Assembly (NCBI RefSeq): GCF_003722075.1
Contig: NZ_RDSK01000005.1
Span: 1 to 35,970 of the forward strand
Source of the DNA: Methanohalophilus sp. RSK
GTDB taxonomy: Archaea; Halobacteriota; Methanosarcinia; Methanosarcinales; Methanosarcinaceae
Direction: 5' to 3'
DNA: 35,970 bases
Positions within the stretch are counted from its first letter, which is position 1, and each line of letters begins with the position of its first letter. This document shows positions 924-13,913 of the stretch, one piece after another. Made by a program: the position numbers and the translations under genes. A model generated the notes under the pieces. It was not told the DNA's origin. It did no database searches and was given only the letters and a program-made list of their open reading frames with translations.

Positions 924-2075
924 ATGTTTCTCACTAAAACAGTTATCTTGAAAATAGCAAATCCTGATGATGATTTAGTGGAAACTATGCAGAAATATTC
1001 AGATGGAAGGAATTATGCTTCTGAAATTGTTTTTGGCAATGGTAAACCGATATCTTCGATAAAATTGCAGCAGGAAGTTTACGCATATCTTCGTGAAACA
1101 TTAAAATTAAAATCCCAGATGAGTTGTAATATTCCAAGACAGGTTGCAGGGTGTTACAAAACATTGTATAAACTGAAAACGTCGAAATGGCAAAAGGTAC
1201 AATTTTCACCATCCTCAATGACCTTTTCTTACAAAAGGGATTTTACTGTTAGTGAAGATAAGGTCAAAATAACCACTATTAATGGAAGAAAATCTTATTC
1301 AATTTTGAATTATGATCATGCAAAACAGTATTTTGATGGTTCATGGAAATATTAGGCATCCCAAATTGTAAAACACAGGGATGGAGATTATTATTTCCAT
1401 CTGTGTGTGGAAAAAGAAATCCCTGATAAAGAATTGACAGATGCATCTACATTTATGGGAATTGATGTTGGTATGAACTATCTTGCTGTTGCTTCCACCA
1501 CTGACAGGAAATGTAGTTTTTTTGCTGGTGGTGAAATTAAGAATCTTCGCAACCAGCACAAGTCAATGCGAGCACGGTTACAATCGAAGGGAACTTCATC
1601 TGCAAAACGTATGTTGAAACATATTGCAGGTAAAGAGAAACGTCTTATGCGAGATGTAAACCACAAAATCTCAAAAGAAATTGTGAAGTTCGCAAGTGAA
1701 AGAGGTGTATCTGTAATAGGTCTGGAAGATTTAACGGGGATACGTGAATCCACACTTTCCAAAGTTTCCAAAAAGAAAAGACATAACCACAGTAGTTGGG
1801 CTTTCCGCCAATTACAAACATTTATTGAATACAAGGCAAGAGAAGCAGGCATAATTACACATTATGTTGATCCATCGTATACCTCTCAAACCTGTATTCG
1901 ATGCAATCATATCTCTAAGAATAACCGTAACAGATTGTCTTTTAGATGTGAAAAATGTGGTTATGAAAACAATGCCGACCTGATCGGTGCAATGAATATT
2001 GAACACAAAACACGGGATTACAGGTATATCCTGGAATCTCAGGGGTGCTTGTCAGCCACCCAGACGAATGCTTAA
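924..2075 (+). CDS. tnpB: TnpB-type RNA-guided nuclease (OrfB) with one in-frame TAG codon
   Basis: Two reading frames, 924-1352 and 1356-2075, are in the same phase and separated only by TAG at 1353-1355. Read through, they give a 383-residue TnpB of normal length. The RuvC catalytic residues are present: GIDVGMNYLA (Asp), GLEDLTGI (Glu) and NNADLIGAMN (Asp), together with a zinc ribbon CIRCNH...CEKCGYE near the C-terminus. TnpB proteins are nucleases guided by an RNA from the element's right end and help maintain the element. A TATA-like TTTATAAT at 893-900 suggests a nearly leaderless transcript. The nonsense codon sits between the N-terminal and RuvC parts (after Trp-Lys-Tyr). As no gene here ends in TAG, the codon is plausibly decoded as pyrrolysine; a simple amber mutation is the alternative. 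Confidence 0.85.
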
Positions 2076-11006: not shown

Positions 11007-11636
11007 TCAATCAAAGGTATCCGGGATAATTCCCAGTGCCTTTTCTACTTTTTCCAGCATGTCATAGCGTATTCCGATAGGTACTTCTTCGCTGCTATAC
11101 TTACTGTGTTTTCTGGATCCCTTGCATCCAAAAGACAGGGCTATTCCTTTATTCAGGGTCCCTGCTACACAATCACTGCATACAGAAGCTGCGCCGATTG
11201 TTTGAATGTCTGCTGGAGTTCCATTGTAATAGGCTATCGCCTGGATTATTCGCATTGCTTTTTCAGGTTTCAGGTACAAAATACAAAGATCAAAATTTGT
11301 GCTGTTTTTTGAAAGAGGTTCGATTTTCAAAGTCCCGTATTCCTTTTCCAGCCGGCAGAGGGAAAAGACTGCATTTTCTGCGATTTCGTATGATGCGTAT
11401 CTACCTGAATTAAAATAATATTCAGCCGGGGGTTCATTGCTTTTACCAAGGATGAACTTGCCGACTCTGCATCGTTGTGCTGTAATCAAGGATTGTTTTC
11501 CATATCTTGCATCGGTAATAATTTCGCAGAAGAGTTTCTTAGATACGTCCCCTTTCGTGCTGTTCTGGAAAGTAATACAAACCGGACTTCCTTGATCCAT
11601 AATGCCCTTTATGTTTTTCATCCAATCATGTACCAT
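11007..11636 (-). CDS. DUF169 family protein, third gene of the sepS-endonuclease V set
   Basis: The 209-residue protein shows the DUF169 pattern: SPVCITFQNS near the start, CEIITDARYGKQSLITAQRCRVGKF, YYFNSGRYAS, and a C-terminal TIGAASVCSDCVAGTLNKGIALSFGCKGSR. It carries several conserved-looking cysteines (a CxxC near 155 and a GCKGSR Cys), which would suit a metal, cluster or thiol role; the family function is unknown. ATG 11636 overlaps the end of the endonuclease V gene by 11 bases, so translation is probably coupled; the longer frame from 11684 would lie inside that gene. A second DUF169 gene overlaps pscS elsewhere in the window, linking the family to tRNA-dependent cysteine synthesis. 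Confidence 0.78.
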   Translation of the reverse strand: MVHDWMKNIKGIMDQGSPVCITFQNSTKGDVSKKLFCEIITDARYGKQSLITAQRCRVGKFILGKSNEPPAEYYFNSGRYASYEIAENAVFSLCRLEKEYGTLKIEPLSKNSTNFDLCILYLKPEKAMRIIQAIAYYNGTPADIQTIGAASVCSDCVAGTLNKGIALSFGCKGSRKHSKYSSEEVPIGIRYDMLEKVEKALGIIPDTFD

Positions 11637-12297
11637 CGCTTTTACCCCATTTCTTTTTTTCTTTTCCTGCACATTGATGAGCAAGCCTTAATGGTTCAGG
11701 CATTTTGTTTTCTTTCAGGCACTTTATTGCGATTTCCAGGCAACTCTTGATGGATGTAAGATGTCCGATTGTAATTACGATTGGTTTTGTTTCGGGCAAT
11801 ACTTTAAGGAGCCAACCTTTTTGTTTTCCTCCATGATACAATGGCTGAGCTTCTTTTTCTTTTTGTGGTATTTTTGCCCTGCCGCAAAACATTCTTTTTG
11901 TGATCCCGATTGTGGGCTTATCCAGGATCACTCCAATATGAGAGGCAAATCCGGCGCTTGCAGGATGGGTGGTACCACAGGCATTGATTATAAGCAGATC
12001 AGGTTTGTGGCTGATCTTCTGGTAGGCTCTGATTGTCCCTTCTCCTTCACGAAATGAAAAAAAACCCGGTATATAAGGAAAACTTGCCTTTCCAATATGA
12101 ACTGTCCTTTCTACAAATTCCATAGTGGGATATTCCAGTACGACAATACAGCATATCACCAGATCCTTGAAATAGGCACAGTCCGCACCCCCAATAAGTT
12201 TGATTCTTTCAAACCCATCAATGGTGACAACCTGTCTGCCTATTTCTTCCTGAAGATTTCTGAACCACTATAGAGCGGAATCTGGCAGTTTTTTCAT
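11626..12297 (-). CDS. nfi: endonuclease V-like protein with an in-frame TAG at codon 10
   Basis: Endonuclease V cleaves nucleic acid next to deaminated bases such as inosine. From ATG 12297 the frame reads MKKLPDSAL, TAG (12270-12268), WFRNLQEEIGRQ and onward to a full 223-residue protein, the normal length. Family motifs follow: GGADCAYFKD (first metal Asp), VVLEYP, PYIPGFFSFREG (Glu), THP and ASHIG, PTIGITK and EPLRLAH. The ATG overlaps the sepS stop as ATGA, a typical coupled start. After the TAG the first possible start is GTG 12159, which would remove the catalytic Asp, so the amber codon is probably translated. The usual DGxGxxHPR appears as NACGTTHPA, so the third metal-binding Asp seems to be Asn. 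Inosine cleavage is therefore uncertain. Confidence 0.8.
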
Positions 12298-13913
12298 GAA
12301 ATCTCTGTCTTTATCGTGGTAAACACAGGTCCTCGTATGTCTATTTTCTTGTTTTTGCCGGTCACGTAACGCTGTGCAAGGGGGGAGAGTTTAATGTTTA
12401 TTTCTGCAGGTGTCTTTATTATTCGTGCACGTGTCTCAATTTCAGTATCGCCTTTTGCAACAGCATCTTCGACCTCGCTTGCTGCCCTTGCTGCCAGTGC
12501 TTCAATAAACCTGACACCGGTCCTTGCTGAATGATTGGAAAATGCTTTTTTCCATTTTTTATTATTTGGTAATCCCAGGATGTCGTTATTGTAAATTACA
12601 ATCTCATTAAAAGCAGCCGGGCCACAGAGTTTAGTGTCTTCTTCTGGTTCAATGACTGAAACCTTTACATTGTGCCCTTCAATTTCTCCTTCCCAGGCAG
12701 GGAACTCGCAGGGGCTGGGTTCGGAGGCATGGGCATCACACTGCTCAACAATGGCTTCGAATATTTCCCTGCCCTGAAATGTTTCGGGTATCATGTCAAT
12801 TTCAACATGCTTGGCAAGTTCGCTGTCGGACATTTCCCATTCAGAGTACAATTCCATCTGTGGATAACTCATGCCCCGCAGGTCAGTGGCCTCATGGATG
12901 ATCATGGCAAGCCTTTCAACCCCAAGGCCCAGGTTCATCACAGGATAGGGAATATCATATTTTGAAAGAGGTATCGGGGAATATATTCCAAAAGTAGCAA
13001 TTTCAACCCATCCGTCCGAATATTTGGTGTTGGAATCTACAAGTTTTGGGTGGTATGCAAATACCTCTATCTGGGTATCAGGACTGTAATATTTACTGCG
13101 TTTTTCATCAGGCCTGAATTGGAATTTCTCAAAACCAAATTGTGATAACAGGGCCTGGGCAACAGCTTTGCCGTAATCTACGGTCACATCCTCATCCATT
13201 ATTACACAGGATGCTGAATAATAGGTCATAAGCCTGGCAGCATCTTCCTGTTGTTCCCGCCGGAAGCACCTGTCGATGGAGAATAAATTAAATGGTGGTT
13301 CACGGCGCTTGAGAATCTCTGAAAGACTGATAAACCAGCCTGAGGTCATATGGCTGCGCAGGGTACGTTTGCCTGCTTTGGGTGTTAGTTCCTTAAATTC
13401 CGGGAACACCTGGTCTATGACTTCGACAATGAGGGAATCTGACACGTCCAGTTTTGCGGCCATTTCCGGGACAAGATCATCACCTTCAATTTCTCCTTTC
13501 TTATAGGCGTGCAGGACTTTCCGTATTACATCAATATCTTCTGTGGAAAGTTCTCCCAGCATTTCTTTTATTTTAGATATGCGCTCATCGGATATGCCGG
13601 CATTTGGTCGGGGAAGTCCTGCCAGATAGAAACATCTGTCAAGTACAGCCAGAGCTTCATGGCCGAATTGCTTGTGCACTTCCTGTTCATCAACAATGAT
13701 GGGATTCATCATTTCCTCAAAACCCATGCGCAGATAGGCTTCCCTGAGTTTTGCAATAGTATCATAAACAGGATGAGGTTTACCATAGTTGAACGATGTT
13801 ATAGGATAGCGTTCATTGAACAGGGGCTTTTTGACATACTTTGCGCTATCGTTCCAGGCCCTGTCAAAATCTTCGCTGGCATCTTCTCTTATTTTATCAG
13901 GATCGAATTTCAT
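12294..13913 (-). CDS. sepS: O-phosphoseryl-tRNA(Cys) synthetase (SepRS)
   Basis: SepRS ligates O-phosphoserine to tRNA-Cys in archaea that lack or supplement CysRS; SepCysS then converts the product to Cys-tRNA. The 539-residue protein begins MKFDPDKIREDASEDFDRAW and shows class II features: SHMTSGWFISLSEIL around 185-200 (phosphoserine site), the motif 2 loop FSIDRCFRREQQEDAARL, and the motif 3 region PVMNLGLGVERLAMI. AGGGGAA precedes the ATG. It lies 12 bases after the translin gene, and its stop overlaps the endonuclease V start. PscS is encoded about 12 kb away and tRNA-Cys about 12 kb in the other direction. Confidence 0.96.
   Translation of the reverse strand: MKFDPDKIREDASEDFDRAWNDSAKYVKKPLFNERYPITSFNYGKPHPVYDTIAKLREAYLRMGFEEMMNPIIVDEQEVHKQFGHEALAVLDRCFYLAGLPRPNAGISDERISKIKEMLGELSTEDIDVIRKVLHAYKKGEIEGDDLVPEMAAKLDVSDSLIVEVIDQVFPEFKELTPKAGKRTLRSHMTSGWFISLSEILKRREPPFNLFSIDRCFRREQQEDAARLMTYYSASCVIMDEDVTVDYGKAVAQALLSQFGFEKFQFRPDEKRSKYYSPDTQIEVFAYHPKLVDSNTKYSDGWVEIATFGIYSPIPLSKYDIPYPVMNLGLGVERLAMIIHEATDLRGMSYPQMELYSEWEMSDSELAKHVEIDMIPETFQGREIFEAIVEQCDAHASEPSPCEFPAWEGEIEGHNVKVSVIEPEEDTKLCGPAAFNEIVIYNNDILGLPNNKKWKKAFSNHSARTGVRFIEALAARAASEVEDAVAKGDTEIETRARIIKTPAEINIKLSPLAQRYVTGKNKKIDIRGPVFTTIKTEIS

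Follow-up and report, generated by a model that had tools for sequence, protein, structure and literature searches.

An in-frame UAG codon in an endonuclease V homologue of Methanohalophilus, probably read in part as pyrrolysine

In the genome of the halophilic methanogen Methanohalophilus sp. RSK, the reading frame of a homologue of the DNA/RNA repair enzyme endonuclease V (EndoV) meets a TAG after nine codons and then continues without interruption. This arrangement raises the question of whether the codon closes a short leader, marks a gene in decay or is read as pyrrolysine (Pyl). The DNA analysed, here called the window, is a stretch of 35,970 nucleotides that constitutes contig C5 of a 1.97-Mb genome.

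The endoV gene occupies positions 11626..12297 on the minus strand and comprises 223 codons if the TAG is read through, followed by a TGA terminator (11628..11626). Its ATG (12297..12295) overlaps, as ATGA, the stop codon of the upstream gene sepS, which encodes O-phosphoseryl-tRNA synthetase (12294..13913, minus strand; PF18006 SepRS_C and PF01409). At the other end, a DUF169 gene on the same strand (11007..11636; PF02596) has its ATG at 11636 and overlaps the 3′ end of endoV. The in-frame TAG is codon 10 (12270..12268, minus strand). These coordinates, together with a match of the product to the Pfam family Endonuclease_5 (PF04493) that scores 191 bits (cut-off 23.4), bear out a preliminary description made from the sequence, which had proposed a 223-codon EndoV-like frame that opens at the ATGA overlap and meets TAG at codon 10. 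The same description held that the next start after the TAG would forfeit the first metal-binding Asp. Indeed, the first ATG, GTG or TTG after the TAG under the standard code is the GTG of codon 47, at 12159, which is already past the codon for Asp39 (12181..12183, minus strand), the nearly invariant residue that aligns with Asp43 of T. maritima EndoV. Moreover, three of the six relatives have GTA in place of this GTG, which moves the first start that is conserved after the TAG to the ATG of codon 59.

Decoding of UAG in this genome

The Pyl reading presupposes pyl genes, and a complete cassette is present in the same genome. The genes for tRNA-Pyl, pylS, pylB, pylC and pylD are contiguous on contig C1, and each Pyl protein scores far over its family cut-off. 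Two mtmB genes, which serve as a positive control, each carry the expected single in-frame TAG. Family-wide conservation of Pyl, with a presumed role in catalysis, characterises the methyltransferases MtmB, MtbB and MttB. The endoV codon would share with these genes, of which mtmB is found in this genome, the reading of UAG as Pyl by the same cassette, although the endoV site is peripheral and its relatives have Glu or Asp there.

A sample of 349 kb, composed of one 313-kb contig plus the window, contains 201 well-supported genes, of which four end in TAG, 110 in TGA and 87 in TAA. A report from 2025 is said to describe archaea that generally decode TAG as Pyl, and if this genus is among them, endoV would be one example among many. 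UAG does not invariably act as a sense codon in this genome, because the TAG that ends pylB (G000:C1:303902-304963, minus strand) sits at the stop position used in other methanogens (PMC2933860). This TAG was considered as a Pyl site and rejected on that ground and because the 39-codon open extension beyond it overlaps pylC in another frame.

Readthrough could also proceed with no involvement of Pyl if a near-cognate tRNA decoded the UAG at a low level, and Pyl-independent stop-codon readthrough in prokaryotic genes has been proposed (PMC7918605). However, the genome offers a dedicated tRNA-Pyl(CUA) with its charging system as well as mtmB genes that carry TAG, and the sole stop in the endoV frame is UAG, the one that this tRNA reads. 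We consider decoding by a near-cognate tRNA highly improbable.

Conservation of the codon and of the frame beyond it

When orthologues were compared at position 10, as the preliminary description had suggested, TAG was found in every one of the six Methanohalophilus-type genomes in which endoV is retained (the present genome, G002, G003, G004, G006 and G007, the last being M. mahii). A sequencing error was ruled out as its source, since five further genomes of the genus have the same TAG. At the aligned position, the codon is GAG, GAA, GAT or GAC (Glu or Asp) in ten orthologues drawn from five sister genera; this alignment contains a gap located a few residues upstream of the TAG site. No other in-frame stop, whether TAA, TGA or a second TAG, occurs in the aligned frame of any of the six genus sequences. 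Three results had been named in advance as contrary to a Pyl reading, namely absent pyl genes, a different conserved start after the TAG and a base other than TAG, and none of them was found.

Conservation of the TAG was also considered as proof of selection for Pyl, and this argument was rejected. A neutral codon would go unchanged over the six-genome tree with a probability of ~0.18, and 51% of endoV codons are identical in all six genomes. Finding the TAG fixed across the six genomes is unexceptional.

The frame beyond the codon was examined by counting changes on the tree with the transition bias of the genus itself. Purifying selection is seen on codons 11-58 (12124..12267, minus strand), the stretch from the TAG to the ATG of codon 59, with S=22, N=12 and an omega of ~0.19 (p=1.9e-6 versus neutrality). 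The shorter stretch of codons 11-46 also departs from neutrality (p=7.7e-5), as does nearly the whole remainder of the gene, codons 11-215, where omega is ~0.3 (up to 0.33; p=7.6e-13). Pairwise omega values for endoV range from 0.07 to 0.38 within the genus and from 0.10 to 0.36 for sister-genus pairs, which have no TAG. The whole endoV gene is as constrained as in the sister genera, and its constraint is weaker than that on sepS (omega ~0.05).

These data bear on a reading in which UAG keeps its standard meaning and no recoding is required. The codon would then close a nine-codon leader, and EndoV would start internally at the AUA of codon 19, which is preceded in the sequence by AGGA, or at some later codon. 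Yet purifying selection acts on codons 11-58, and Gln16, located past the TAG but ahead of any downstream start, is invariant in 23 of 23 aligned homologues, implying that residues before codon 19 are part of the protein. Most sister-genus frames likewise begin well upstream of Gln16. The later candidates fare no better, since GTG47 is not kept and a start at codon 59 would lose Asp39. From the selection on codons 11-58, the loss of GTG47 and the invariance of Gln16, it follows that the stretch from the TAG to any ordinary start is protein, and internal initiation is quite improbable.

Because the TAG is fixed, no other stop is present and purifying selection continues past the codon, the UAG is very probably read as sense. 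The decoded residue is almost certainly Pyl, as judged from the pyl system, the TAG codons of mtmB, the genus-wide TAG and the selection beyond it. We consider it very likely that endoV is a translated and selected gene whose UAG is read in part as Pyl and has been tolerated by drift. A Glu or Asp codon would have become UAG in an ancestor of these Methanohalophilus-type species, plausibly through a single step from GAG to TAG. Under the simplest mechanism, charged tRNA-Pyl and the release factor would now compete at this codon, such that part of the ribosomes would insert Pyl at position 10 and complete the 223-residue protein, while others would stop after nine residues. We infer both the identity of residue 10 as Pyl and the efficiency of this readthrough; an amber codon placed in a reporter yielded 20-30% full-length product in M. 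acetivorans (PMC2933860).

The EndoV-like protein and its retention in the genus

An AlphaFold model based on an alignment of 23 sequences has a mean pLDDT of 91 and adopts the RNase H-like EndoV fold, with TM scores of 0.86-0.90 against 4xpu, 2w35 and 6ozf (EndoV of E. coli and T. maritima). The likeness to these two enzymes (TM ~0.9) extends to the motifs Asp39, Glu84, PYIP, Lys134 and His207, all of which are kept. The differences, apart from the UAG at codon 10, concern the HPR motif, which is HPA here, and the metal site. Of the ligands in the T. maritima enzyme (Asp43, Glu89 and Asp110), the first two are present as Asp39 and Glu84, but alignments place Asn105 (11983..11985, minus strand) at the position of Asp110 in six of six genus members, whereas sister genera keep Asp. 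The D110N mutant of T. maritima EndoV, which was crystallised with inosine DNA (PDB 6ozf), carries the identical substitution. The product falls below the NCBIfam equivalog cut-offs for deoxyribonuclease V (182.4 versus 230 bits) and for Thermotogales EndoV (166.3 versus 300). The literature searched contained no paper on EndoV D110N or on a 'Pyl code'.

With the metal-binding Asp changed to Asn throughout the genus, the notion of a working endonuclease V is not supported, and standard EndoV-like cutting by this protein is unlikely because the Asp110 ligand is absent. The biochemical role that we infer is probably the binding of deaminated, inosine-containing nucleic acid. Selection still acts on endoV, which suggests some remaining role. 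The earlier statement that the rest of the gene shows no decay needs qualification in view of Asn105 and the HPA motif.

Position 10 is located in the first predicted helix of the model (residues 6-22), apart from the metal-site motifs represented by Asp39, Glu84 and residue 105. The placement of the TAG at codon 10 was therefore correct, although the codon is within this helix and not just before it as had been stated. Pyl is not conserved family-wide at a catalytic site in these proteins, given the acidic residues of the five sister genera and the position in helix 1 off the metal-site motifs. While the Pyl reading itself has gained support, functional importance of the residue has not, since sister genera have Glu or Asp and fixation of the TAG is not unusual. 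Pyl10 would most likely be a tolerated substitution, located outside the active-site motifs and fixed by drift, like the one in Thg1 of M. acetivorans.

A different view is that the TAG truncates the protein and that the remainder is a decaying remnant, and several features of the genus favour such an outcome. Two more distant members (G001 and G005) lack endoV and have sepS directly followed by DUF169, and in G006 the gene has a 7-base deletion and is out of frame. Because it is absent from two relatives and deleted out of frame in another, endoV is dispensable in the genus. Also, the Asp-to-Asn change in the active site could be a sign that the gene is being lost. Real decay of another gene is seen in the same genus. 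Comparison of the citrate synthase loci L048-L057 shows intact copies that lack TAG in G002 and G005, a copy with a single TAG in M. mahii and degraded remnants in G000, G003, G004 and G006. However, these true remnants are truncated and carry TAA or TGA, whereas the aligned endoV frame has neither of these stops nor a second TAG in six sequences, and its omega of ~0.3 past the codon is not above that of the sister genera. A one-base gap in a T-run of the G004 gene is probably an assembly error, since sepS of G004 is also split. There is consequently little probability that endoV is a pseudogene, and a translated gene with partial reading of UAG as Pyl is preferred.

Known pyrrolysine genes, a downstream hairpin and other in-frame TAGs

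Few Pyl proteins have been shown outside the methylamine methyltransferases. The present case would not be the first, as Thg1 (tRNA-His guanylyltransferase) of M. acetivorans is already known; Pyl was observed in that protein and is unneeded for its activity (PMC2933860). Thg1 and endoV are alike in being non-methyltransferase genes with an in-frame TAG where relatives have a sense codon. They differ in that the Thg1 TAG occurs in one species and its Pyl has been physically seen, whereas six species share the endoV TAG, a putative Pyl codon. An amber codon in citrate synthase of M. mahii, for which the genome authors suggested Pyl (PMC3017947), is closer in that it affects a non-methyltransferase gene of the same genus, but this TAG is found in one species, while the endoV TAG is present in all carriers and is followed by a frame under selection. 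The citrate synthase TAG may rather reflect the beginning of gene loss. A published list of predicted Pyl genes included M. mahii (PMC3639795), and endoV may already be among its entries.

Unusual features of endoV are a TAG fixed across at least six species and selection that is measurable past the UAG. The genus is culturable and M. mahii carries the endoV TAG, such that this gene bears on whether ordinary genes routinely read UAG as Pyl. Standard annotation of genomes of this kind would miscall such selected genes as pseudogenes or start them too late.

A stable RNA hairpin is predicted at 12169..12246 (minus strand); its start lies 24 nt from the T of the TAG. In the four relatives tested, the 100 nt from the TAG are the strongest-folding window in the surrounding 3 kb or are tied for that rank. 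Folding of a 105-nt window gave z scores of -2.9 to -5.4 in the six genus members; among 364 random coding windows, 0.8% reached z <= -3.6 and none reached z <= -4.4. The same window in ten sister-genus orthologues forms different folds, with z scores from -2.8 to +1.5. Covariation in the counts of hairpin pairs is no better than in shuffles, and a comparison of the hairpin with Rfam gave no significant match. The hairpin was also considered as a general PYLIS element, which is not supported, as mtmB of this genome folds unremarkably after its TAG (z 0.2). We regard the hairpin as a lead and not as an established element. A genus-wide gate, in which UAG and hairpin together tie the level of a nuclease-dead, inosine-binding EndoV to Pyl supply and hence to methylamine growth, would give Pyl a regulatory role over a nucleic-acid protein that is not part of methanogenesis, but we consider this arrangement unlikely.

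In another family of the order, the EndoV homologue of G040 has an in-frame TAG (LVRORAVL, where O marks the codon). A PylS search of this genome gave no match over the cut-off, and the gene could be a pseudogene, the TAG an error or pylS unassembled.

A scan of the 349-kb sample for TAG-interrupted frames of low omega was dominated by antisense frames and was restricted to same-frame cases, which include two further genes with private in-frame TAGs. One is a TnpB / IS605 OrfB-like gene in the window (924-2075, plus strand), whose TAG at 1353-1355 is codon 144; close full-length copies without the stop are present in G003, G004 and G007, and the 105 nt after the TAG fold with a z score of -3.3. 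The other is an RNA methyltransferase-like gene (G000:C1:71888-72922, minus strand), of which G002, G003, G006 and G007 have full-length copies without the stop. Its TAG, at C1:72181, is CAG in M. mahii (G007) and appears to be a Pyl site that arose recently and is tolerated.
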